Positions 1,685-35,432 of a DNA stretch of 39,774 nucleotides are shown piece after piece; position 1 is the stretch's first letter; every line of letters starts with the position of its first letter. The stretch is from Candidatus Nomurabacteria bacterium (lineage in GTDB: Bacteria > Patescibacteriota > Saccharimonadia > Saccharimonadales > Saccharimonadaceae). Made by a program: the position numbers and the translations under genes. The stretch lies in NCBI GenBank assembly GCA_031280785.1, contig JAITGI010000027.1:1-39774 (forward strand), given 5' to 3'. The notes under the pieces are model-generated. The model made no database searches and was not told the origin of the DNA. It was given only the letters and a program-made list of their open reading frames with translations.

Positions 1685-1940
1685 ACATCACAAATTTAGA
1701 CTCTATGGCGTCGGCACGATCGGACCGAAAGGTCAAATCGTCATCCCTGTCGAAGCGCGCCGCGAGATGAACCTGAACCCTGGCGACAAGGTCGTGCTGG
1801 CGGGTTTGCCGCACGAAAAAGCCATCACTGTCGTGGACGAGCATACATTTGAGCGTCACATGGGCATGATGCGCCAAAAATATCACATGATGGGCGAAAT
1901 GCTGGACGACCTGGACACGAGGAAAAAGCCAAATGCATAG
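1674..1940 (+). CDS. AbrB/MazE-type (SpoVT-AbrB) transcriptional regulator
   Basis: VGTIGPKGQIVIPVEARREMNLNPGDKVVL is the swapped-hairpin AbrB signature. Track ORF starts at 1623, but in-frame ATG 1674 lies downstream of the likely promoter. 3' end overlaps the ABC gene by 8 nt. Confidence 0.8.
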   Translation: MHDIHHKFRLYGVGTIGPKGQIVIPVEARREMNLNPGDKVVLAGLPHEKAITVVDEHTFERHMGMMRQKYHMMGEMLDDLDTRKKPNA

Positions 1941-3699
1941 GTTTTTCCGCTATCTCGGCCGCTATTGGTGGCAAGTGATTTTGCTACTGGCGGGGCTGGC
2001 GTTGCAAGTTTGGTGTAGCCTGGAATTGCCGTCGATGATGAGCCAAATCGTCGATCAGGGGATCGTGGGCGGCGACCAGGACCTTATCGTCGGCAAGGGC
2101 GTGGAGATGCTTGGCGTGACTTTTGTTGGCGGCGTCGGCACAGTAGTGGCGGGTTTTTTGGCGTCGCGGATCGGCGCCGGTTTGGCGCTGCGGGTGCGCC
2201 AGGATCTCTTTGCTAAAATTATGAGTTTTTCGATGACGGAAATGAGCAAATTTTCGACATCGTCGCTGGTGACGCGTTCGACCAACGACATCAATCAGGT
2301 CCAAATGGTGACCACGATGGCGCTGCGCATGAGCTTGCAGGCGCCGATTATGGGCGTCGGCGCGATCATGATGGCGTTTGGCACGGCGCCCGATATGACC
2401 TGGATTATCGCCCTGGCGGTGGGCGTTTTATTAGCGTTAATCGCGGTGGTTTTTGTCTTTGCCTTGCCAAAATTCAGCAAATTGCAAAAATTAGTCGACA
2501 AGCTGAACCAAGTCACGCGCGAAAATTTAACCGGTTTGCGAGTGGTGCGAGCGTTCAATAACGAGGCACGCGAAGAGCAGAAATTCGACGCCGCCAACGA
2601 GGACTTGACGCGCGTAAACCTGTTCGTCAACCGCCTGATGGTTTTGGTTTTCCCGGTGGTCGGGCTGACTTTGAATGTGGCAACGCTGTTGGTGATTTGG
2701 GTGGGCGCCGGCTATATCGACGGCGGCGTGGTGGAGATCGGCGACCTGATGGCGTTCATGCAATATGCCATGCAGGTTATGATGGCGTTTATGTTCCTGG
2801 CGATGACGTTTATCATGGTGCCGCGCGGCGCGGTTTCATGGAAACGTATCAACGAAGTGCTGAACACGACGAATTCGATTCAGTTTCCTGGCAGTGCGAA
2901 AAAGCCCGCCCGGAATTTGCGCGGCGTGGTCGAGTTTCGCGACGTCAGTTTTGCCTATCCTGGCGCCGAGGACGCCGTTTTGAAAAATATTTCGTTCAGC
3001 ACGCGCCCGGGTAAAACTACGGCGTTCATCGGCAGCACTGGCAGCGGCAAGTCGACATTGGTTAATCTGGTGCCGCGTTTTTTCGACACCACCAGCGGCG
3101 AAGTTTTGGTCGACGGCGTCAACGTGCGCCAGATGAGCCAACGTGATCTGATGAGCCGAATCGGTTATGTGCCGCAAAAAGGCGTCCTGTTCAGCGGCAC
3201 CGTGCAGTCGAATGTGGCGTTCGGCAGCAGCAAGAACGACGGCAAAAACATCAAGCGCGCCCTGGACGTGGCGCAGGCAAAAAGCTTTGTTAGCAAATTG
3301 TCCGGCAAGCTGAAAGCGCCGATCGCCCAAGGCGGCAACAACGTCAGCGGTGGTCAAAAACAGCGTCTGTCGATTGCGCGGGCGATTGCTCGCCGACCGG
3401 AAATCTATATATTTGATGACAGTTTTTCGGCACTGGATTATCGCACGGACAAGAATTTGCGTGCGGCGCTGAGCAAAAATACCAGCGATGCCACGGTGAT
3501 GATTGTGGCACAGCGTATCGGCACGATTAAAAAAGCCGACCAAATCGTGGTGCTGGATCGGGGAAAAATCGCGGGTATCGGTCGCCACTATGAGCTACTG
3601 AAAAATTGTGCCGTGTATCGCGAAATCGCCGCCAGTCAGCTGTCGGATGATGAGATGACAGCGGAAATGAAATTGGCGGACAAGGAGCAACATGGCTAA
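1933..3699 (+). CDS. ABC exporter subunit, permease-ATPase fusion (degenerate-site half)
   Basis: ABC transmembrane domain plus Walker A GSTGSGKS, signature NVSGGQKQR, Walker B IYIFDDSFSALD. Confidence 0.93.
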   Translation: MHRFFRYLGRYWWQVILLLAGLALQVWCSLELPSMMSQIVDQGIVGGDQDLIVGKGVEMLGVTFVGGVGTVVAGFLASRIGAGLALRVRQDLFAKIMSFSMTEMSKFSTSSLVTRSTNDINQVQMVTTMALRMSLQAPIMGVGAIMMAFGTAPDMTWIIALAVGVLLALIAVVFVFALPKFSKLQKLVDKLNQVTRENLTGLRVVRAFNNEAREEQKFDAANEDLTRVNLFVNRLMVLVFPVVGLTLNVATLLVIWVGAGYIDGGVVEIGDLMAFMQYAMQVMMAFMFLAMTFIMVPRGAVSWKRINEVLNTTNSIQFPGSAKKPARNLRGVVEFRDVSFAYPGAEDAVLKNISFSTRPGKTTAFIGSTGSGKSTLVNLVPRFFDTTSGEVLVDGVNVRQMSQRDLMSRIGYVPQKGVLFSGTVQSNVAFGSSKNDGKNIKRALDVAQAKSFVSKLSGKLKAPIAQGGNNVSGGQKQRLSIARAIARRPEIYIFDDSFSALDYRTDKNLRAALSKNTSDATVMIVAQRIGTIKKADQIVVLDRGKIAGIGRHYELLKNCAVYREIAASQLSDDEMTAEMKLADKEQHG

Positions 3700-5755
3700 T
3701 AAACGCCGACACGACAACAGGCGCGGCGGCATGCCGGGCGGACCAATGATGATGGGCGACGCCAAGCCGAAGAATTTCAGCCGCGCCATGAAAAGCCTGT
3801 GGAGCGTGCTGCGACCGCATCGAATCGCCATTTCCATCACGGTGTTGCTGACAATTATCTCGACGATTTTTTCCATCGTCAGCCCGAAAATCCTGGGCAA
3901 TATGACGAACCAAATTGTGGACGATTTCATTTCGATAAAATCATACGAAGCGGTGCGGGGTAGTTTGCCGGCGGAGCTGGAATTGCCGGCGGGCACGACG
4001 GTCAAGAATTTGCCGGAGACCTTGCAAAACCTGGCGCAGACCGGGCAATTGCCGCCGCAGGTTTTGTCGGGCTTGGCGGAAAGTCAAAAAAATCTGGGCG
4101 AGGCGTCCGACTTGGACAAGATCCCCTCCGCCCAGCGTGAATTGATCGAAAACCTGGATCTGGGCGCCGCCAAACCGGCTTTTCATTACGAAAAATTGGC
4201 GGAAATCGCGCTGGTTTTGATCACGCTCTATGTGTTGTCGTGCCTGGCGAATTATGTCAGCGGTTGGGTGCTGAGCGGTCTGGTGCAGCGCGCCATGCGT
4301 GATTTGCGGGCGCGGCTGAGTCGGAAAATCAATCGATTGCCGATTGGTTATTTTGATCGCGTGCAATACGGCGATACGCTGAGTCGCGTGACGAACGACG
4401 TGGACACCATCGGTCAGACGCTGAATCAGGCGTTCAGCCAGGCAATTTCGTCTGTGGTGCTGATTGTCGGCGTGTTGGCGATGATGATTTCGATCAGTTG
4501 GCTGATGACGTTGGTGGCGCTGGGCGTGCTGGTGATCAGTTTTGTTTTCGTAGGCACGATAACCAAGAAAACTCAAAAACATTTCAAATCACAGCAGGAT
4601 AGCATTGCCGATATCAACGGGCACGTCGAGGAAAACTATGCCGGACAGCTGATCGTCAAGGCTTATTCGGCGGAGGCTGGGGCGATGCGGCGGTTCAATA
4701 CTATCAACCAGCGACTCTATGCCAGCAGTTGGAAGTCGCAATTTTTGTCAGGTTTGATGATGCCGCTGATGCAATTTATCGGCAATCTGGGCTATGTGGC
4801 GACGGCGGTGTTGGGCGGTTGGCTGGCGCTGAACGGGCGGCTGAGCATCGGCGACATCCAGGCGTTTATTCAATACGTCAGCCAAATGCAGCAGCCGATT
4901 ACCCAGGTTGCGCAGATTATGAATCTGTTGCAGTCGACGGCGGCGGCGAGCGAGCGCGTTTTTGATTTCTTGGCGGAGCCGGACGAGGCGCCTGACCCGA
5001 CGAATCCGCAAATCATCGAATCTGTGCGCGGCGAAGTCGAATTTAACGGCGTCAATTTTGGCTATGAAAAAGGCAAAAAAGTCATCCGGAACTTCAACGC
5101 CCACATTCGTCCCGGGCAAAAAGTCGCCATCGTCGGCCCGACCGGCGCTGGCAAAACCACCATCGTGAACTTGCTGATGCGGTTTTACGACGTCGATTCC
5201 GGCACCATCAAGGTCGACGGCGTGGACACGCGCGCCATGCGCCGCGCCGATGTGCGTGAGCTGTTCGGCATGGTGTTGCAGGACACTTGGCTGACGAACG
5301 GCACGATTTACGAAAATCTGGCGTATGGCGATCTGAACGCTGATCGTGAGCAAATTAAGCACGCCGCTGTTTCGGCGCACGTCGATCATTTCGTGCGCTC
5401 GCTGCCGGACGGCTATGACACGCGCATCGACGAAGACAGCGAAAATATCAGCGTGGGCGAAAAGCAGTTGCTGACGATCGCCCGTGCCATGTTGGCGGAC
5501 GCGCCGATGCTGATCCTGGACGAGGCGACCAGCAGCGTCGACACCCGCACCGAAGTGTTGATCCAGCGCGCCATGGAAAAATTGACCGCCGGTCGCACCA
5601 GTTTCGTCATCGCCCATCGCCTGTCGACAATTAAAAACGCCGACTTGATCCTGGTCATGCAAAACGGCAACATCATCGAACAGGGCACGCACCGCGAGTT
5701 GTTGCGCGCCGATGGTTTTTACGCCAAACTTTATAATTCGCAGTTTGCGGAGTAG
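3692..5755 (+). CDS. ABC exporter subunit, permease-ATPase fusion with ~100-aa TM1-TM2 insertion
   Basis: Walker A GPTGAGKT, signature NISVGEKQL, Walker B MLILDEATSSVD, H-loop AHRLST; overlaps the preceding ABC gene by 8 nt. Confidence 0.93.
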   Translation: MANKRRHDNRRGGMPGGPMMMGDAKPKNFSRAMKSLWSVLRPHRIAISITVLLTIISTIFSIVSPKILGNMTNQIVDDFISIKSYEAVRGSLPAELELPAGTTVKNLPETLQNLAQTGQLPPQVLSGLAESQKNLGEASDLDKIPSAQRELIENLDLGAAKPAFHYEKLAEIALVLITLYVLSCLANYVSGWVLSGLVQRAMRDLRARLSRKINRLPIGYFDRVQYGDTLSRVTNDVDTIGQTLNQAFSQAISSVVLIVGVLAMMISISWLMTLVALGVLVISFVFVGTITKKTQKHFKSQQDSIADINGHVEENYAGQLIVKAYSAEAGAMRRFNTINQRLYASSWKSQFLSGLMMPLMQFIGNLGYVATAVLGGWLALNGRLSIGDIQAFIQYVSQMQQPITQVAQIMNLLQSTAAASERVFDFLAEPDEAPDPTNPQIIESVRGEVEFNGVNFGYEKGKKVIRNFNAHIRPGQKVAIVGPTGAGKTTIVNLLMRFYDVDSGTIKVDGVDTRAMRRADVRELFGMVLQDTWLTNGTIYENLAYGDLNADREQIKHAAVSAHVDHFVRSLPDGYDTRIDEDSENISVGEKQLLTIARAMLADAPMLILDEATSSVDTRTEVLIQRAMEKLTAGRTSFVIAHRLSTIKNADLILVMQNGNIIEQGTHRELLRADGFYAKLYNSQFAE

Positions 5756-9393: not shown

Positions 9394-9506
9394 ACACGGC
9401 GCAGGTCGGCAAAAGCAATTGCTTTTGTTTCACTCATCAGAGTGAAACGGGTTTAATTCATTGTCGCCGCCCGCGCACATTTACAGTTCACATGGAGGTA
9501 AAAAAA
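9337..9506 (+). promoter_or_regulatory. Cassette A promoter and structured leader
   Basis: TTGACG (9337-9342)-17 nt-GATAAT (9360-9365), inside the rsmA 3' end. P1 ATTCGAC-aatatc-GTTGGAT 9372-9391; P2 palindrome CAAAAGCAATTGCTTTTG 9410-9427; P3 GTTTCACTC-ATCA-GAGTGAAAC 9427-9448; GTCG...ACATTTACAGTT; SD GGAGGT. Confidence 0.7.
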
Positions 9507-9983
9507 ATGGACATATTATCTTTTCAAAACGTAGCTTTAGCCGTAGTTTTAGTTTTAACAATCGTCCAATTTGTCGTTAGTGACAAATGCGACAATATTA
9601 TTGATAGCGTCCGATATATAAAATCGTTCAAGATGATACCTGCTGACGAGGGTCATGTGGTGGGAGAAAAAAAATATATCAATGGCGAAGAAGTATCGAA
9701 AGAGCTCTTTCATGAAGTATCTTTTTTGCGAAGGACGACATTAAAAGCCGCCAACAAATTAGAGGTTTTTCTATTAAGATTTAGACTGGTCGTGTGCGCC
9801 ATATATTCAGGCGTAATTATCACCTTTGTGATAAAATTTTTAATCGATTCTATACTTATCGGCGCAGTTATTTTTTTAGTGTTATTAGTTATGAACTTTA
9901 TGTTTAATACTAAAAGTGAAATCTTAAAATATGTTAATCTCCTAAAAGAGCAACAACCCGACAACGCCGGAAAACCCGACTAA
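9507..9983 (+). CDS. Orphan multi-TM protein (cassette A)
   Basis: ATG 9507 after SD GGAGGT; hydrophobic N-terminal segment and two C-terminal TMs; ends ...KPD* inside the terminator. Confidence 0.65.
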   Translation: MDILSFQNVALAVVLVLTIVQFVVSDKCDNIIDSVRYIKSFKMIPADEGHVVGEKKYINGEEVSKELFHEVSFLRRTTLKAANKLEVFLLRFRLVVCAIYSGVIITFVIKFLIDSILIGAVIFLVLLVMNFMFNTKSEILKYVNLLKEQQPDNAGKPD

Positions 9984-9996
9984 GTCGGGTTTTTTC
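9971..9996 (+). terminator. Intrinsic terminator with the stop codon in its loop (cassette A)
   Basis: AAAACCCGAC-TAA-GTCGGGTTTTTTC; TAA 9981-9983 is the stop codon. Confidence 0.88.
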
Positions 9997-10202: not shown

Positions 10203-10598
10203 ATGGATACCATTATAATAGTTATAGGCATAATGTTTCTTATTGCTTTATCACCACAAAAGGAGCATTTTATTAATTTTTGGCTGATGGGTATGGCTGA
10301 AACTAGGGAAGAAGAAAAGTATGCATGGAAGGAGTTTGAGAAATTACGAAACCTGCGATCCAGATTGATTTTTGCGGCTGCAGCTTGCGCCATGGCTATA
10401 TTTTTCGTGAGAAGTTTTAACATAGGGAATACTGTGACCATTTTTAGTATAGACTATAATGTGGTCATTACTATTTTTCTATATGTTGCTACAATGATAT
10501 TGTTATTAGCTGTAATAATAAATAAAATAAAAACATATTTATTCTACGGTCGCCGGGCAAGAAGAAGAAAAAAGCTGAGTAATATAAAACCCGACTAA
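10203..10598 (+). CDS. Orphan multi-TM protein (cassette B)
   Basis: SD AGGAGGT upstream; N-terminal TM, charged loop, two C-terminal TMs, ends ...NIKPD*. Confidence 0.65.
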   Translation: MDTIIIVIGIMFLIALSPQKEHFINFWLMGMAETREEEKYAWKEFEKLRNLRSRLIFAAAACAMAIFFVRSFNIGNTVTIFSIDYNVVITIFLYVATMILLLAVIINKIKTYLFYGRRARRRKKLSNIKPD

Positions 10599-10610
10599 GT
10601 CGGGTTTTCT
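10586..10610 (+). terminator. Intrinsic terminator with the stop codon in its loop (cassette B)
   Basis: AAAACCCGAC-TAA-GTCGGGTTTTCT, same 23-nt core as cassette A. Confidence 0.88.
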
Positions 10611-10658: not shown

Positions 10659-12062
10659 ATGACCAACATCACCGAATATTATTTATTGCATCACCTCGAA
10701 TCGGTGCTGATCTTGTTGCTGATTTTTGTGGTGGCGTATACGATTGCCAAGACTTCGATTTTGCGCCGGCTGTATTTGCCGGTGGCGTTGGTGGCGGGGA
10801 TTATTATTCTGGCGGTGGGACCGCAAGTGCTGGGGCGGTGGCACCCGGAGCTCGCGCTGCCGGCGGATTTTTACACGACATGGGCGCCGCTGCCGGGGGT
10901 GCTCATCAATATCGTTTTTGCCTGTCTGTTCCTGGGGCATCCGGCGCTGAAACTGCGCCAGATGTGGAGCTTGTCGGGGCGGCAAATTGCCTTTGGGCAG
11001 ATGGTGGCGTGGGGGCAGTATCTGGTCGGCGGGCTGGTGGCGCTGTTGCTGCTGATACCGCTGTTCGGCGACACGCCGCTGGTTGCCAGCCTGTTGGAAA
11101 TCAGTTTCGAAGGCGGTCACGGCACGGTGGCGGGGCTGACGCCGGTTTTCAACGACCTGGGTTTTCATGACGGCGCAGCGATGGCGAATGGGCTGGCGAC
11201 GCTCAGCCTGGTTTCGGCGCTGATCATCGGCATTATCCTGATCAACTGGGGTCATCGTCGCGGTCACGCCGAGAAAACTCAGCCGCTGATTCATCGCGAA
11301 AAGCAGCGTTTTTATCACTATACGATTATCCATCGGATTCATTTACAGTATAAGGAAATGCATGATCGGCGCCTGACGGTGCGCAAGCTGGTGCGCCATG
11401 CGTTTTTGGTGATGTTGTCGCTGGGGCTGGGTTTTGGCATTCGGGCGATTTTGATCGCCATCGAGGACGCCACCTGGGGTCAAGCCGGGGTAAAGGTTTT
11501 TGGTTACGTGCCGGCGTTCAGTATTTGTCTGTTCGGCGGGCTGATCGTGAACAAGCTATGTTATCGGCTGGGTGTGCGGATTTCCATGACGGCAAATTCG
11601 CTGATTTCGACGCTGTCGCTGGGGATTTTGATTATGACGGCGGTTGGCACGATGTCGCTGGAATTTTTCCGCCAGCCGAACCTGGCGGCGTCGTTCTGGA
11701 TTTTGTTCGTGGCGGGTGCGATTTGGATTTTGGCGGCGGTGCTGATCCTGGCGCGGCGGATTTTTACGCGTTATTGGTTTCATAATGCCATGATTAGCTT
11801 CGGTCAGGCGATGGGTATGACGGCGACGGGGCTACTGTTCGCCCAAATGCTCGACCCGAAAAATCGCACGGGTGCCGTCGAGGCGTTTGGCTATAAACAA
11901 ATGCTGTTCGAGCCGCTGATGGGCGGCGGCTTGGTGACGGCGATGTCGATGCCGCTGATTCTGTTGCTGGGGCTGCCGCTATTCACGCTGATTTGCGGCG
12001 TGATTGCGGTCGGCTGGTTTTTGGCGGGAATTTTCTATTTCCGGCGGCTGTCGTTTGAATGA
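10659..12062 (+). CDS. Sodium/glutamate symporter (GltS) family transporter
   Basis: ISFEGGHGTVAGLTPVFNDLGFHDGAAMANGLATLSLVSALIIGIILINWGHRRG resembles the GltS core motif; about 10 TMs. Confidence 0.75.
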   Translation: MTNITEYYLLHHLESVLILLLIFVVAYTIAKTSILRRLYLPVALVAGIIILAVGPQVLGRWHPELALPADFYTTWAPLPGVLINIVFACLFLGHPALKLRQMWSLSGRQIAFGQMVAWGQYLVGGLVALLLLIPLFGDTPLVASLLEISFEGGHGTVAGLTPVFNDLGFHDGAAMANGLATLSLVSALIIGIILINWGHRRGHAEKTQPLIHREKQRFYHYTIIHRIHLQYKEMHDRRLTVRKLVRHAFLVMLSLGLGFGIRAILIAIEDATWGQAGVKVFGYVPAFSICLFGGLIVNKLCYRLGVRISMTANSLISTLSLGILIMTAVGTMSLEFFRQPNLAASFWILFVAGAIWILAAVLILARRIFTRYWFHNAMISFGQAMGMTATGLLFAQMLDPKNRTGAVEAFGYKQMLFEPLMGGGLVTAMSMPLILLLGLPLFTLICGVIAVGWFLAGIFYFRRLSFE

Positions 12063-12082
12063 GGTGTGATAAAATAGGTGTT

Positions 12083-13513
12083 ATGAAAAAATACATCACG
12101 ACGGCTATTCCGTATCTGAACGCGCGACCGCATATCGGGCACGCCATGGATTATTTGTTGGCGGACGTTTGGGCGCGCCATGAAACCATAGGCGGGCACG
12201 AGGTTCGCATGTCCGCCGGTGCCGACGAGCATGGCACCAAGGTCGAGCAAAAAGCTCGCGAAGCCGGCGTCAGCCCCCAGCAATTCGTCGACGATTTGGC
12301 GCCGACTTTTCGCGTCATGATCGCCAAATTGAACGTCGGCGTGACCGATTATGTCCGCACGTCCGACCCCGAACACGCGCGCCGCTGCCAGGAAATTTGG
12401 CGTCGGCTGGACGCGGCGGGCGTGATTTATAAATCCAAATACCAGGGTTGGTATTGCAGCGGCTGCGAAAGTTTCGTGACCGAAACTGAGGCGCGCGCTA
12501 TGGATTATCAATGCCCGGATCATCAAAAACCACTGGAAAAAGTTTCCGAGGAAAACTATTATTTGCGCGTCAGTAAATTCACCGACCAAATTCGCGAATT
12601 TGTGCGCACGGCGGTCGTGCCGGAATTTCGCGGTCGGGAAATCCTGGAACTGATCAAGGACGGCGCCCAGGACGTCAGTATCAGCCGTCCGCTCGAAAAG
12701 CTGGCGTGGGGCGTGCCGGTGCCGGACGACGACGCCCAAGTCATGTATGTCTGGGTGGATGCGCTTTCCAATTACATCACGGCGCTGAGCTATCCGGACG
12801 ACGATTTCGCCGCTGATTTTTGGCCGGCGCACGTCCAGGTTGTCGGCAAAGACATTTTGCGTTTTCACGCTATCATCTGGCCGGCGATGTTGTTGGCGCT
12901 GGGGCTGAAATTGCCGCGCACGCTGCTGGCGCACGGTTTTATAAATGTTGATAATACTAAAATGAGTAAATCCCTGGGCAACGTGGTTGATCCGATCGAG
13001 CTGGTCGAGCAATACGGCGTCGACGCCGTGCGGTATTTTTTCCTGCGGCATATTCCGACATTCGAGGACGGCGATTACACGACGGAGAAATTCATCGCGG
13101 CGTATAACGGCGAGCTGGCGAATGATCTCGGCAATTTGGTCAGTCGTCTGGCGAATATGATCGACAAATACGACGTGCCCAGCGCTTGGCGGGACAGTCA
13201 ATCGCGCATCGCCGCCGAGGTGGCAGAGTTTCACAAATTTATGAAAAAGTTTGAATATCACCGCGCTTTGGAAACGATTTGGACGGCGGTGCAGTCGTGT
13301 AATCGCTATATCGACGAAACCAAACCGTGGGCGCTGGCGAAAACCGACTCCGCCGAGATGGCGCAAGTTCTGAACGTCCTGTGGGGCGACATCATGATAA
13401 TTCAGGCACTGCTCACACCGTTCCTGCCCGACGCTGCCGCTAAAATTCGTGCGGTTTTCGATGGCGATACTGTCCAGCCGGCGCCGATTCTATTCCCGAA
13501 AGTTGACATATAG
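12083..13513 (+). CDS. metG: Methionyl-tRNA synthetase
   Basis: MKKYITTAIPYLNARPHIGHAMDYLLADVWAR; WYCSGCESF; DNTKMSKSLGNVVDP (KMSKS). In-frame ATG 12083 preferred. Confidence 0.96.
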   Translation: MKKYITTAIPYLNARPHIGHAMDYLLADVWARHETIGGHEVRMSAGADEHGTKVEQKAREAGVSPQQFVDDLAPTFRVMIAKLNVGVTDYVRTSDPEHARRCQEIWRRLDAAGVIYKSKYQGWYCSGCESFVTETEARAMDYQCPDHQKPLEKVSEENYYLRVSKFTDQIREFVRTAVVPEFRGREILELIKDGAQDVSISRPLEKLAWGVPVPDDDAQVMYVWVDALSNYITALSYPDDDFAADFWPAHVQVVGKDILRFHAIIWPAMLLALGLKLPRTLLAHGFINVDNTKMSKSLGNVVDPIELVEQYGVDAVRYFFLRHIPTFEDGDYTTEKFIAAYNGELANDLGNLVSRLANMIDKYDVPSAWRDSQSRIAAEVAEFHKFMKKFEYHRALETIWTAVQSCNRYIDETKPWALAKTDSAEMAQVLNVLWGDIMIIQALLTPFLPDAAAKIRAVFDGDTVQPAPILFPKVDI

Positions 13514-13673
13514 TGTTGGCTATGATACAATGATAGTGACGCAATGTGAATCGCGTCGGTTTGTGGCATAAACACTAGTGTTTAGTATTAGCCTTTATGG
13601 CTAATACCTATTCATTTTGTTGTTTATCGTCGCTGACCGCAATTATTTCCGGAGTTTGACAGGAGGTGTCATA
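13503..13673 (+). promoter_or_regulatory. Cassette C promoter and structured leader
   Basis: TTGACA (13503-13508, inside the metG 3' end)-17 nt-TACAAT (13526-13531); P1 GACGC...GCGTC 13538-13557; P2 AAACACTAGTGTTT 13570-13583; P3 GTATTAGCC-TTTAT-GGCTAATAC 13585-13607; TATCGTCGCTGACCG; SD AGGAGGT. Confidence 0.68.
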
Positions 13674-13964
13674 ATGAAAAGCCGGGACGAACTTTTGATT
13701 AAAACCAGGGAAGACGCAGAGAAGTTGATTGCGCAAGTTTTACTAGCGCTTAATATCCCAAAGAATGGGCTTGAGGAGGAAGTGCTTAAATCATCTATGG
13801 AGTTCTGGGACCACGAGTATCATGAAATTACGTCCAAAGAGGATATGGCGCCTGAACTTGCGGCGCGGAGCACTACGGTTCTTGTCATGATAGTGATATT
13901 CGGCGGGAGTTACGGCTCAACTACGATCGACGCATCGATGTACGTGCTGAACAAACTTCTTTAA
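13674..13964 (+). CDS. Orphan small protein (cassette C)
   Basis: ATG 13674 after SD ACAGGAGGTGTC; 96 aa MKSRDELLIKTREDAEKLIAQVLLAL... Confidence 0.6.
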   Translation: MKSRDELLIKTREDAEKLIAQVLLALNIPKNGLEEEVLKSSMEFWDHEYHEITSKEDMAPELAARSTTVLVMIVIFGGSYGSTTIDASMYVLNKLL

Positions 13965-13977
13965 CTAGTCTTTACCA

Positions 13978-14005
13978 CTACCCCGTCAACCATGGCGGGG
14001 TTTTA
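13978..14005 (+). terminator. Intrinsic terminator (cassette C)
   Basis: ACCCCG-tcaaccatgg-CGGGGTTTT. Confidence 0.65.
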
Positions 14006-14022
14006 AAATTTGTCACCGACAT

Positions 14023-14129
14023 TTGCAAAAAGTAAAAAATAGTTATATAATGCCAACAATTCACGGGGCAATCCGGCTTTTTGTGAACGAAACTTGAAAA
14101 GTTATTGTTTTTCCGAAGGAGGTGGAAAA
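14023..14129 (+). promoter_or_regulatory. Cassette D promoter and leader
   Basis: TTGCAA (14023)-17 nt-TATAAT (14046-14051); stem TTCAC...GTGAA 14060-14087; SD AGGAGGT before ATG 14130. Confidence 0.6.
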
Positions 14130-14264
14130 ATGTTTTCTATAATCAGAGTGCTCGAAATACCGAGCACCATCGGCAATATCCTATTTGCCGTTGCCGCAGT
14201 AAGCGTTGTCACTGAAATTATCGTGACGAGGCTTGCGAAAAAAAGGAGGACAAAAAATGGGTAG
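14130..14264 (+). CDS. 44-aa single-TM peptide (cassette D, ORF 1)
   Basis: MFSIIRVLEIPSTIGNILFAVAAVSVVTEIIVTRLAKKRRTKNG*; SD GAAGGAGGTGG. Below the ORF-track size cutoff. Confidence 0.6.
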   Translation: MFSIIRVLEIPSTIGNILFAVAAVSVVTEIIVTRLAKKRRTKNG

Positions 14265-14388
14265 CGTCTATGCCTGCGCAATTACTATTGCGTTTTTTGC
14301 AGTTATAGCGTTCACTGCGCTCGGCATCGTTGCTCATACTATGATCGCGCGGTGGAAGAAAAAAGGAGGCGACCACGATGTTTCATAA
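14257..14388 (+). CDS. 43-aa single-TM peptide (cassette D, ORF 2)
   Basis: MGSVYACAITIAFFAVIAFTALGIVAHTMIARWKKKGGDHDVS*; SD AAAGGAGG inside ORF 1; 8-nt overlap. Below the ORF-track cutoff. Confidence 0.6.
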   Translation: MGSVYACAITIAFFAVIAFTALGIVAHTMIARWKKKGGDHDVS

Positions 14389-14770
14389 TTTTGATTGGCA
14401 ACTAGCCGCTCAAATTATAGGAGCGGCTTTTTTCGTCGGCGCAATGTTTGCGGTGGTATCAATATTACTGATGTATTGTGCATTTTTCCGCACAAATACT
14501 CGGCAGAAATTCGCGCCATATTTGCGGGCGTATGACTTGATACCGGTATTCACATTTCTCTTCGGATTCGGATTTGGAATAATCGTGATATTCCGGGAGA
14601 GATTTCCCATGTCTGACGATTGGGCAGGAGGATTAAAGCCCGTAGTGTTTTTTGTGATTGCCATCGCAATCACGTTTTTGGGCATGTTTATTCGAGATTA
14701 CTCGAGTGACATGCGTCGCTTGGCAAATGATGCCAAACGGGCTGCTGAGAGAAGGGAGGAGCCAACATAA
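14378..14770 (+). CDS. 130-aa multi-TM orphan protein (cassette D, ORF 3)
   Basis: SD AAAGGAGG inside ORF 2; 11-nt overlap with ORF 2; three hydrophobic segments and a basic C-terminus. Confidence 0.65.
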   Translation: MFHNFDWQLAAQIIGAAFFVGAMFAVVSILLMYCAFFRTNTRQKFAPYLRAYDLIPVFTFLFGFGFGIIVIFRERFPMSDDWAGGLKPVVFFVIAIAITFLGMFIRDYSSDMRRLANDAKRAAERREEPT

Positions 14771-14782
14771 CAATAACTTCAC

Positions 14783-14821
14783 AAAACCCGCCATTTGATA
14801 ATTTCAAACGGCGGGTTTTTC
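14783..14821 (+). terminator. Intrinsic terminator (cassette D)
   Basis: AAAACCCGCC-aTTTGA-taat-TTCAAAc-GGCGGGTTTTT. Confidence 0.88.
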
Positions 14822-14836
14822 ACGTATAATGGGCGT

Positions 14837-15619
14837 ATGAATTTAATTGATACACATTGCCACATCCATGACACGGATTTTGGTTTGGCGGTCGAGCCGG
14901 TTTTGGCGGCGGCGCGCGCGGCTGGCGTGGGGCGCGTCATCACGGTCGGGACCGACGTGGCGAACTCGCGCGCTGCGGTGGAATTTGCGGCGGTGCACGA
15001 CGGCGTTTTTGCCGTCATCGGCATTCATCCGGGCGAGGCGCCGCGTGGCACGCTGGACGAGCTGGACGAGATTGTCAAGAATAACCAGTCGGAGGCGAGC
15101 AAATTACTTGGGCTGGGTGATATCGGACTTGATTATCATCGGGGGCGCGACGATCGCAGCGCGCAGATAAAATTGTTCGAAGCGCAGCTGGATTTGGCGA
15201 CGAGATATGATTTGCCGGTGAGTTTTCATGTCCGCGAGGCATTTGATGATTTCTGGGCTATTTTCGACAGTTTTCCGTGTCGGGGGACTTTGCACAGCTT
15301 TACCGACAACGTGACAAATATGGAAAAGGCGTTATCGCGCGGGCTACTGATCAGCCTGAACGGGATTTTGACGTTTAATCGGCAGGCGGATTTGGACGTG
15401 GTTTTCGACGCTGTGCCCATGGGTCGAATCTTACTGGAAACCGACGCGCCGTTCCTGGCGCCGCACCCGCATCGCGGCAAAATCAATCAGCCAGCGTATG
15501 TCGCTGACATCGCGGCGTGCCTGGCGCAGCGCCGCAAAATGGCCGTCGCCGACATCGCCGAGATCACCACCCGAAACGCCGAAAAACTATTTAGCAAAAA
15601 ACTCTTGTCGAATGTTTGA
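14837..15619 (+). CDS. tatD: TatD family metal-dependent hydrolase
   Basis: MNLIDTHCHIHD...VIGIHPGEAP...LGLGDIGLDYH...HVREA...LHSFTD...ILLETDAPFLAPHPHRGKINQP. Leaderless: TATAAT 6 nt before ATG 14837. Confidence 0.92.
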   Translation: MNLIDTHCHIHDTDFGLAVEPVLAAARAAGVGRVITVGTDVANSRAAVEFAAVHDGVFAVIGIHPGEAPRGTLDELDEIVKNNQSEASKLLGLGDIGLDYHRGRDDRSAQIKLFEAQLDLATRYDLPVSFHVREAFDDFWAIFDSFPCRGTLHSFTDNVTNMEKALSRGLLISLNGILTFNRQADLDVVFDAVPMGRILLETDAPFLAPHPHRGKINQPAYVADIAACLAQRRKMAVADIAEITTRNAEKLFSKKLLSNV

Positions 15620-15659
15620 GCGGCTGGTATAATTAGCATAACTGTAAAATAGGGGGAAG

Positions 15660-16292
15660 ATGAAAGATCTCGACGGCATAAAATTAGATAATCTGTGGCG
15701 CGAACGAGAAGGGCTAGGTCCAGGGTCGGGTGACGAAAGGAAACCTGCTGAGCCGCCTCGCGAGAGCGAAAATCAGTCTAACGACGGATTGACCGCGAAA
15801 AGTGAGCCAGCTATGGTTGATGTCGGTAAAAAAAATGAAACTCCGCGAAAATCTGAGTCGGGCGAGGCGCCAAAAGCTCCAAAAAAGCGCAATGTATCGA
15901 AGCCGTTGCTTGTGGCTCTGGTCGTCCTGGTCATCTGCGGTCTGGCGACGCTCGTCGTGTTGCAATACCAGGAAAACCAGCGTCTGCGCGACCCGCAACA
16001 GGTAGCGGCTGAAGCCGAGAAAGCTAACAGCGACCTGTTGGGTAAGGTTTCGAGGCTGATCCAGCTGCCCAGCTCGACGCCGATAATCTATGCCGTGTCC
16101 GACAAGGAAGCGGATGATTCCAAACAGATGGCGACTTCGTTAGGCGTGACGCTGGAAAACGAGGATAAAATTATTATTTACTCCGAGGATAAAATGTTCA
16201 TAGTCTATCGTCCGAACGAGGATCGCGTCATCAAATCCGGTCCGATCGCCATCACCGCAGCAGATGAAGGGGCTACTACCAAAGAGCCGTGA
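15660..16292 (+). CDS. Single-TM hypothetical protein
   Basis: Charged N-terminus, TM KPLLVALVVLVICGLATLVVL, then a soluble domain; AGGGGGAAG upstream. Confidence 0.6.
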   Translation: MKDLDGIKLDNLWREREGLGPGSGDERKPAEPPRESENQSNDGLTAKSEPAMVDVGKKNETPRKSESGEAPKAPKKRNVSKPLLVALVVLVICGLATLVVLQYQENQRLRDPQQVAAEAEKANSDLLGKVSRLIQLPSSTPIIYAVSDKEADDSKQMATSLGVTLENEDKIIIYSEDKMFIVYRPNEDRVIKSGPIAITAADEGATTKEP

Positions 16293-19112: not shown

Positions 19113-19463
19113 TTGACTTTTAAACCCCCATGTGCTATAATAGGGGTGTAGGGTGATATATAAACATCATCCTCGCAACCAAGACAATTCCAACTCAATA
19201 ACAGTAATCACAGAGCAGATTCGCCCTGTAATTACAGGGTTTTCTCTTTAAACCAAGAGAAAACCCTATGAGCTTAATTGTCAGCACCTTAACAAAGTGC
19301 AAGCTACTTATACCTCAATCCCATTTCATCTCTCCATCTCCACTTGTGTGGACGGCGTAAAGAGCGCTAACCCAGTGCCCTTTACGCTGTCCGCACGGGG
19401 ACAGTAATTGTTTTTAATTGCTAACCGTAAAAGGATGTGGTTGGCGTTGGAAGGAGAAGAATA
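19113..19463 (+). promoter_or_regulatory. Cassette E promoter and long structured leader
   Basis: TTGACT (19113)-17 nt-TATAAT (19136-19141); P1 GGGTGAT...ATCATCC 19151-19172; P2 CCCTGTAATTACAGGG 19224-19239; P3 GGGTTTTCTCTT-TAAACC-AAGAGAAAACCC 19237-19266; CCTTAACAAAGTGCAAGCT; 17-bp stem-loop 19346-19396. Confidence 0.75.
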
Positions 19464-20201
19464 ATGAATAAGAAGATTTTTTCACTGGTCGAAATGCTGG
19501 AACATTTTCCAGAGAGGAACTACCGTCAATTGGATGACGGGCGGTTCTTCTATGAAGACGATGATTATGGGGTCACCTTTGTCCACGCGGCGGAACTTGT
19601 CGTAGACGAGCATGGCGATCCTACGGCCAACCCCGTGTCGTTCGTGAAGGACGTGGAGACGACAAGCCCCATGAACATTGACTGGGGAAGCGACAGTCAA
19701 GGAGTTCTTTTTGGTTGTTTCGGCGGCAACGAGGATTCAAAATTTTTTGAAATCGCCGATGAGTCGAGACCACCGACCCATATAATGGTGGTCTCCTGGT
19801 GGGAGGAGTGGCTGGACCAGGACGATAACTGGTCCGGCACAAGCGGAAGGCTCTGGGAAGATCCCGAGCCCTCCGCGGCGGAGCATTTTCGCACGGCTGT
19901 AACAAGCGATGACAACGACTGGCGCTATACCGCCGGTTATGATACATACGTGTTCCCAATAGGAACACGTATGAAAATCACCCTCGACCGATCTACTGCT
20001 AAGATCGGTGTTGTCGCTGAGGTCGACTCCGCGTGGGGAGAGGAGTGCTACCAGAGATATAGATCTCTGACGGCAGAACGTCATAGCCCAGAAGCCTCTG
20101 CGGAAGAACCCGCAGAATCAATAGGGTCAAAAATAAGAAGGACCCTTGCGGAGGCGCAAGCGGAAAAGGAGGAAAAGGAGGAAAAGGAGGAAAAGGAGTA
20201 G
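19464..20201 (+). CDS. Orphan protein, acidic/Trp-rich, repeat C-terminus (cassette E)
   Basis: ATG 19464 after SD GGAAGGAG; MNKKIFSLVEMLEHFPERNYRQLDDG...EKEEKEEKEEKE*. Confidence 0.65.
   Translation: MNKKIFSLVEMLEHFPERNYRQLDDGRFFYEDDDYGVTFVHAAELVVDEHGDPTANPVSFVKDVETTSPMNIDWGSDSQGVLFGCFGGNEDSKFFEIADESRPPTHIMVVSWWEEWLDQDDNWSGTSGRLWEDPEPSAAEHFRTAVTSDDNDWRYTAGYDTYVFPIGTRMKITLDRSTAKIGVVAEVDSAWGEECYQRYRSLTAERHSPEASAEEPAESIGSKIRRTLAEAQAEKEEKEEKEEKE
20162..20197 (+). repeat. Four tandem copies of 9-bp GGAAAAGGA in the 3' end of the cassette E gene
   Basis: Read directly; encodes EKE-EKE repeats. Confidence 0.95.
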
Positions 20202-33550: not shown

Positions 33551-33745
33551 TTGACTTATTTACGAATCTTTGATATAATGGTTGTATAGGGTATGAAGAT
33601 ATCCTATGCAGCGGATAAGTAGTCTGTGTTGCGGGGTGATTTTCGCTCCGTATATACGGAGCTTTCTATGAAATAGAAAGCTTAACTCTTTCCCGAGAAC
33701 CTTACCAGAGTGTTGCTGGCGGAACCGGCAGAAAGGAAAATAAAA
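33551..33745 (+). promoter_or_regulatory. Cassette F promoter and structured leader
   Basis: TTGACT (33551)-17 nt-TATAAT (33574-33579); P1 ATAGGGTAT-gaag-ATATCCTAT 33586-33607; P2 GCTCCGTATATACGGAGC 33645-33662; P3 AGCTTTCTAT-GAA-ATAGAAAGCT 33660-33682; CCTTACCAGAGTGTTGCT. Confidence 0.78.

Positions 33746-35432
<1,687 letters not shown>

Follow-up and report, generated by a model that had tools for sequence, protein, structure and literature searches.

Three kinds of described systems can be compared with the locus considered here. Type I toxins of the TisB, Hok and DinQ kind are peptides of commonly no more than 60 aa, with one transmembrane (TM) segment and a charged C terminus. A review is available (PMC8309996). 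In class IIb two-peptide bacteriocin operons, two small peptides are followed by one multi-TM protein. Small one-TM subunits such as CydX, KdpF and CcmD accompany ordinary membrane enzymes or transporters and are usually conserved. The locus studied here has three ORFs and lies in a stretch of 39,774 nt (the window) that belongs to contig 51 in a draft genome of 649 kb (G000; 83% complete). The bacterium is probably a member of the Saccharibacteria, to judge from its gene content, its genome size and a large family of relatives with genomes of 0.5 to 1.5 Mb. Its first two products, like type I toxins, are under 60 aa with one TM segment and a charged C terminus, and the whole follows the class IIb order. 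It differs from type I toxins in being polycistronic, with apparently coupled translation, a strong open Shine-Dalgarno sequence (SD) and no antisense promoter found. From class IIb operons it differs in having no double-glycine leader or local transporter and in its anchor-like peptides, and the closest relative has one peptide in place of two.

A three-ORF operon between metG and tatD

The cassette is situated between two housekeeping genes (Table 1). The ORF coordinates and lengths given in the preliminary description, together with overlaps of 8 nt (ORF1/ORF2) and 11 nt (ORF2/ORF3), were exact on recheck, and the SDs that it had placed inside the upstream ORFs were found there. SD-to-ATG spacings are 7, 7 and 8 nt for ORF1, ORF2 and ORF3, and hydropathy assigns them one, one and three TM segments; a single-sequence structure model of ORF3 had low confidence (pLDDT 69.5), and a fold search with it gave nothing meaningful. 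The sequence thus supports the earlier claim that small membrane proteins are encoded here in an overlapping, coupled operon bounded by a promoter and a terminator of its own, and a similar layout occurs in G041, the closest relative. Behind the operon, tatD would be served by a putative leaderless-type promoter of its own. A strict promoter pattern was rejected as a cassette signature, as it is the general promoter of these genomes.

Table 1. Features of the cassette and its surroundings (window coordinates unless a locus is named)
Feature	Position	Strand	Remarks
SD-led ORFan cassette	9492-9983
SD-led ORFan cassette	10203-10598
metG	12059-13513		housekeeping gene
Cassette C, SD-led ORFan	13674-13964		between metG and the operon
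Candidate promoter	14023-14051	+	sigma70-like, TTGCAA-17-TATAAT; 10/12 consensus matches
5' leader	14052-14129	+	contains GTTATTGTTTTTC (14101-14113) and SD AAGGAGG (14116-14122)
Inverted 16-mers	14094-14109, 14769-14784		flank the cassette
ORF1, 44 aa	14130-14264	+	one TM, predicted N-out/C-in; basic tail ...LAKKRRTKNG
ORF2 SD, AGGAGG	14244-14249	+	within last codons of ORF1
ORF2, 43 aa	14257-14388	+	one TM, predicted N-out/C-in; end ...RWKKKGGDHDVS
ORF3 SD, AGGAGG	14364-14369	+	within ORF2
ORF3, 130 aa	14378-14770	+	three TM plus charged C-terminal helix
Intrinsic terminator	14783-14819	+	AAAACCCGCCATTTGA-aattt-TCAAACGGCGGGTTTT; 16-nt arms; -21.3 kcal/mol; z -6.5
tatD -10 box	14825-14830	+	6 nt 5' of tatD ATG (14837)
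tatD	14837-15619		housekeeping gene
G041 cassette	L068:14713-15332		same metG-tatD junction
G041 inverted leader-box copies	L068:14773-14785, 15265-15277		AACAATAAC copy at last stop codon
M1	19216-19308		ahead of ORFan at 19464
M1	33638-33721		ahead of ORFan at 33747
M1, weak	9403-9499		weakly, ahead of cassette A

For statistical comparison, we generated 3,000 dinucleotide-preserving shuffles of positions 14000 to 14836. An SD-led ORF of at least 35 aa was present in 61 of them, and a chain of at least two such ORFs in none (0/3,000); the real region holds a chain of three. Across the 39.8-kb window there are 17 SD-led ATG ORFs on the plus strand and 1 on the minus strand, three of them being ORF1 to ORF3. 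The pattern AAAAGGAGG-N4-9-ATG occurs 19 times in G000, compared with 2 times for a reversed control, and many of the matches precede real genes (e.g., rpsG, tsf and rplO), which indicates that the SD is meaningful in this genome. For each of the three ORFs, the proposed frame ranked best of six by a codon-usage score referenced to the housekeeping genes of the window. The cassette ORFs are AT-richer, with a GC3 of 0.46 to 0.49 versus 0.70 in housekeeping genes. While the ORFs, SDs, overlaps and terminator-like hairpin can be read directly, promoter activity and translation are predicted from them; we regard it as very probable that ORF1 to ORF3 form a translated operon.

The coupling also bears on the appearance of the peptides, which had been described as one TM segment plus a basic tail; it was these tails that had led to the holin-, toxin- or bacteriocin-like reading. 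At the 3' end of ORF1 (gcg aaa aaa agg agg aca aaa aat ggg), the in-frame SD encodes K-K-R-R, and at that of ORF2 (aag aaa aaa gga ggc gac cac gat gtt tca), it encodes K-K-K-G-G; the peptide in G041 ends with aca agg agg tga, i.e., T-R-R. Since the SDs lie in frame at the ORF ends, the appearance is partly a by-product of the coupling. Ribosomal-protein junctions in G000 (before rpsG, rpsB-tsf and before rplO) likewise carry the SD of the next gene in lysine-rich last codons, and the upstream genes end in ...KKEGK (before rpsG), ...KEAK (before tsf) and ...KKEAAK. Those junctions overlap by 1 to 4 nt and involve conserved cytosolic products, whereas the cassette overlaps by 8 and 11 nt and encodes ORFan membrane proteins.

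Homology searches returned little. ORF3 had no homolog in 245 genomes of the family, where other matches were at an E value of 1e-3 or worse and mostly short pieces of long frames, and none was found in GTDB contigs or among phages and plasmids; ORF1 and ORF2 were searched in fewer collections than ORF3. None of the three matched Pfam, NCBIfam, PHROGs or PADLOC above the cutoffs. The best PHROG match (E = 0.037) was to a family of unknown function, the PADLOC antiphage defense profiles gave no match at E values up to 1, and PDB searches yielded no credible match for the cassette proteins. DUF202 (PF02656) was rejected as the family of ORF3: residues 12 to 44 align with the latter half of the profile (E = 4e-4), essentially one aligned hydrophobic helix, at 21.1 bits against a gathering cutoff of 23.4 bits. 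The RNA structure of the cassette leader is not unusual (z = 0.13), and the leader had no Rfam match above the cutoff.

The metG-tatD junction in relatives

MetG and TatD of G041 are approximately 71% identical to those of G000, and a cassette occupies the same junction. Its first ORF, preceded by AAGGAGG, encodes a 40-aa one-TM peptide (MSISYILF...RKKITRR), and the in-frame AGG AGG that ends this peptide is the SD of the next ORF, a 115-aa three-TM protein. Downstream of it are a hairpin resembling a terminator and then tatD, of leaderless type. The two cassettes therefore share their location, their gene order, the coupling by an SD in the peptide tail, the topology, the terminator and the 13-mer of the leader. 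They differ in that G041 encodes a single small peptide where G000 has two, and its ORFs are separated by a 2-nt gap rather than overlapping. A fixed three-part complex is accordingly not conserved. The 13-mer GTTATTGTTTTTC is identical in both leaders, at a similar distance from the SD, and a common 13-mer was reached in only 1 of 2,000 shuffled leader pairs.

At the level of sequence, very little is shared. ORF1 and the 40-aa peptide are approximately 20% identical, which is marginal (P of ∼0.03 against local shuffles), and the alignment of ORF3 with the three-TM protein of G041 was no better than shuffles. The latter two have an equal number of TM segments and the same N-out/C-in topology as predicted by the positive-inside rule; homology of ORF3 to this protein is argued from position and topology only. 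The preliminary description had proposed, as a check, to see whether close relatives conserve the short ORFs, and the answer is divided: the architecture and place are kept in G041, but the sequence hardly is. The synteny is plain, and orthology would be our reading of it; we consider it likely that the G000 and G041 cassettes are the same module. Most likely, it is one module older than the split of the two genera, in which the sequence turned over and the architecture stayed.

The module was seen in these two genomes only. In G083, which belongs to the same genus as G041, metG is followed within ∼10 nt by tatD, and metG adjoins tatD in most other relatives with a resolvable junction; at many of these loci metG was recognized only by its C-terminal sequence, and a few junctions were unresolved. 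In one genome (G032, locus L060), the space between metG and tatD holds a different ORF on the minus strand, and in another (G048, locus L053) the two genes are apparently nonadjacent, with another insert.

Inverted copies of the leader box flank the cassette in both genomes (Table 1); in each, the right-hand one lies at the last stop codon. We do not claim them as mobile-element ends, as the shared 9-mer is a ∼2% event and could be due to chance. At another locus of G083 (L112, on the reverse strand of contig 65), an SD-led 101-aa three-TM ORFan is preceded by a leader that contains GTTTTTGTTTTTC, which differs from the cassette 13-mer at one base; this leader lies behind TTGACA-17-TACAAT.

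Possible roles of the operon

A single mRNA would start near position 14058 and end at the terminator, with strong ribosome loading on ORF1. Because each SD lies inside the preceding ORF, translation of ORF2 and ORF3 would be coupled to that of ORF1 and, judging from the anatomy, their output kept in proportion. The two single-span N-out/C-in peptides, with their basic cytoplasmic ends, may pack against the three-span N-out/C-in protein with its charged cytoplasmic helix; that the three products form a physical, stoichiometric complex is a reasonable inference, to which we give an even chance. On this reading, the module would have entered the metG-tatD junction before the divergence of G000 and G041. 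From then on its sequence would have turned over, with position, gene order, coupling and topology retained. Tentatively, then, the cassette may be a lineage-restricted, fast-evolving operon for a small inner-membrane complex, with a protective or exclusion-type function fitting better than a housekeeping one.

The leading alternative is that the metG-tatD junction is an insertion hotspot at which G000 and G041 independently took up different cassettes of small membrane ORFans. In its favor, the three-TM proteins do not align, and the surroundings are suggestive: cassette C shares the gap, cassettes A and B lie upstream, another small membrane ORFan sits just upstream of metG in G041, and the G032 and apparently G048 junctions carry inserts of their own. 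The low GC3 of the three ORFs is also compatible with recent acquisition in place of fast divergence. Independent uptake would, however, have to reproduce the order of one-TM and then three-TM ORFs, the SD-in-tail coupling, the predicted topology and the 13-nt leader box. Moreover, the only other SD-led small-TM chain in the 468 kb sampled from both genomes was atpE-atpF, so two arrivals at one junction by chance are unlikely, as is, in our view, this reading. Small lineage-specific subunits belonging to some conventional membrane enzyme or transporter would likewise account for tiny one-TM ORFs coupled to a larger membrane protein, and ORF1 has a weak match to CcmD (E = 0.14). Since that match scores 12.6 bits against a cutoff of 25.6 bits, the operon has no large catalytic partner and such subunits tend to be conserved, this is less probable again.

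The preliminary description had thought of a holin-, toxin- or bacteriocin-like module, an idea that we find unsupported: the locus shows neither lysis genes nor an antisense promoter, a double-glycine leader or a transporter, and no family matched. A holin/lysis cassette is not supported, as no endolysin or phage genes are adjacent and no phage family matched. Peptides like ORF1 and ORF2 (≤60 aa, one TM segment, basic C terminus) could be type I-like toxins that either regulation or ORF3 restrains. Unlike this cassette, genes for type I toxins are typically monocistronic. A consensus scan of positions 13551 to 16172, which bears on cis-encoded antitoxins only, gave no minus-strand promoter-like site and hence no sign of a cis antisense antitoxin, and the ordinarily structured leader with its strong SD is unlike a silenced toxin mRNA; a toxin module is therefore highly unlikely. 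Scarcely probable is a bacteriocin-like module of class IIb layout, in which the 44- and 43-aa cationic peptides would be followed, in one operon, by a 130-aa multi-TM immunity protein. G041 would have a one-peptide form, and rapid divergence would fit, yet neither ORF1 nor ORF2 has an N-terminal double-glycine leader site, and the GG in ORF2 is SD-coded and sits 6 residues from the end. The neighbors are metG and tatD rather than a transporter (two ABC transporter-like genes at 1933 to 5755 are 8 kb off, with no link seen), and the peptides, which match no family, resemble membrane anchors of one TM segment plus a basic tail.

For the small inner-membrane complex preferred here, the most economical guess is a protective or exclusion role at the envelope, against phage, competitor or host factors; what favors it is that the design stayed fixed while the sequence changed fast, in a CPR bacterium that presumably lives attached to a host, and we put it forward as speculative. 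Somewhat more doubtful is the stronger form, a positionally fixed, hypervariable membrane module whose order, coupling and topology are preserved while nearly all of its sequence is replaced between sister genera, as expected of an arms-race (phage/host exclusion) ORFan system in a CPR epibiont. The cassette illustrates that, even in a reduced CPR genome and with empty sequence searches, unannotated 40-aa ORFs can be real and architecturally constrained, and it makes metG-tatD a specific locus for following the fast evolution of small membrane proteins. If the protective role is true, it would offer a new entry point to how host-attached bacteria handle phages or hosts.

Neighboring cassettes and the M1 leader element

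The further SD-led ORFan cassettes between ksgA and tatD (Table 1) have strong promoters and long leaders, and two of the three encode small multi-TM proteins. The leaders of the cassettes at 9492 to 9983 and 10203 to 10598 have GGCAAAAGnAATTnCTTTTG and GCACATTTACAGTT in common, and an identical 23-nt terminator-like palindrome, AAAACCCGACTAAGTCGGGTTTT, ends both (9971 to 9993 and 10586 to 10608). Many housekeeping genes have a −10-like box 6 to 10 nt before the ATG and thus a leaderless look (e.g., tatD at 14825 to 14839 and genes of L068); the ORFan cassettes, by contrast, combine long leaders with strong SDs.

Ahead of many ORFans in this family, and approximately 75 nt downstream of sigma70 promoters, we noticed an element of ∼90 nt, termed M1. 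Its order is an 18-nt palindrome (e.g., GCTCTGTATATACAGAGC), a U-rich arm forming a second hairpin, an CCTTAATTGTCT..CACCTTAA box and the SD-led ORFan. A search for M1 (palindromic hairpin, second hairpin and ACCTTAA box) in the operon leader, with filters off and E values up to 10, gave no R1 match; as the three-ORF operon is without M1, the element is listed here as a side observation. In the leader of cassette C (13578 to 13628), a hairpin comes after a perfect palindrome of 16 nt, TAAACACTAGTGTTTA; this is the M1 layout with different bases, but it scores only 8.3 bits (E = 4.9) with the M1 model.

A covariance model built from 6 sequences found 12 sites in G000 and matched well in several further genera of the family; at E values up to 0.01, M1 was present in 12 of 198 genomes, a few of the matches being weak. 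Loci with M1 outside the window are L145, L147, L148, L149, L150, L151, L157, L158, L159, L163, L164, L172 and L174. Among 30 distinct sequences, some of them related and all aligned by fitting to the structure, 14 of the 15 pairs changed on both sides, and 94% of the cells paired, versus 78% in shuffles and 41 to 65% when the alignment was slid (covariation score, 0.482 versus 0.179). M1 matched no Rfam family. Self-complementarity of the four central bases, seen in 27 of 28 sequences, is a feature that an ordinary RNA hairpin does not need and that hints at a DNA palindrome or RNA kissing; M1 may be a novel regulatory leader or else a palindrome at the DNA level. In one leader (L168, positions 1501 to 1624; G029, contig 12), the palindrome-hairpin unit is tandemly duplicated.
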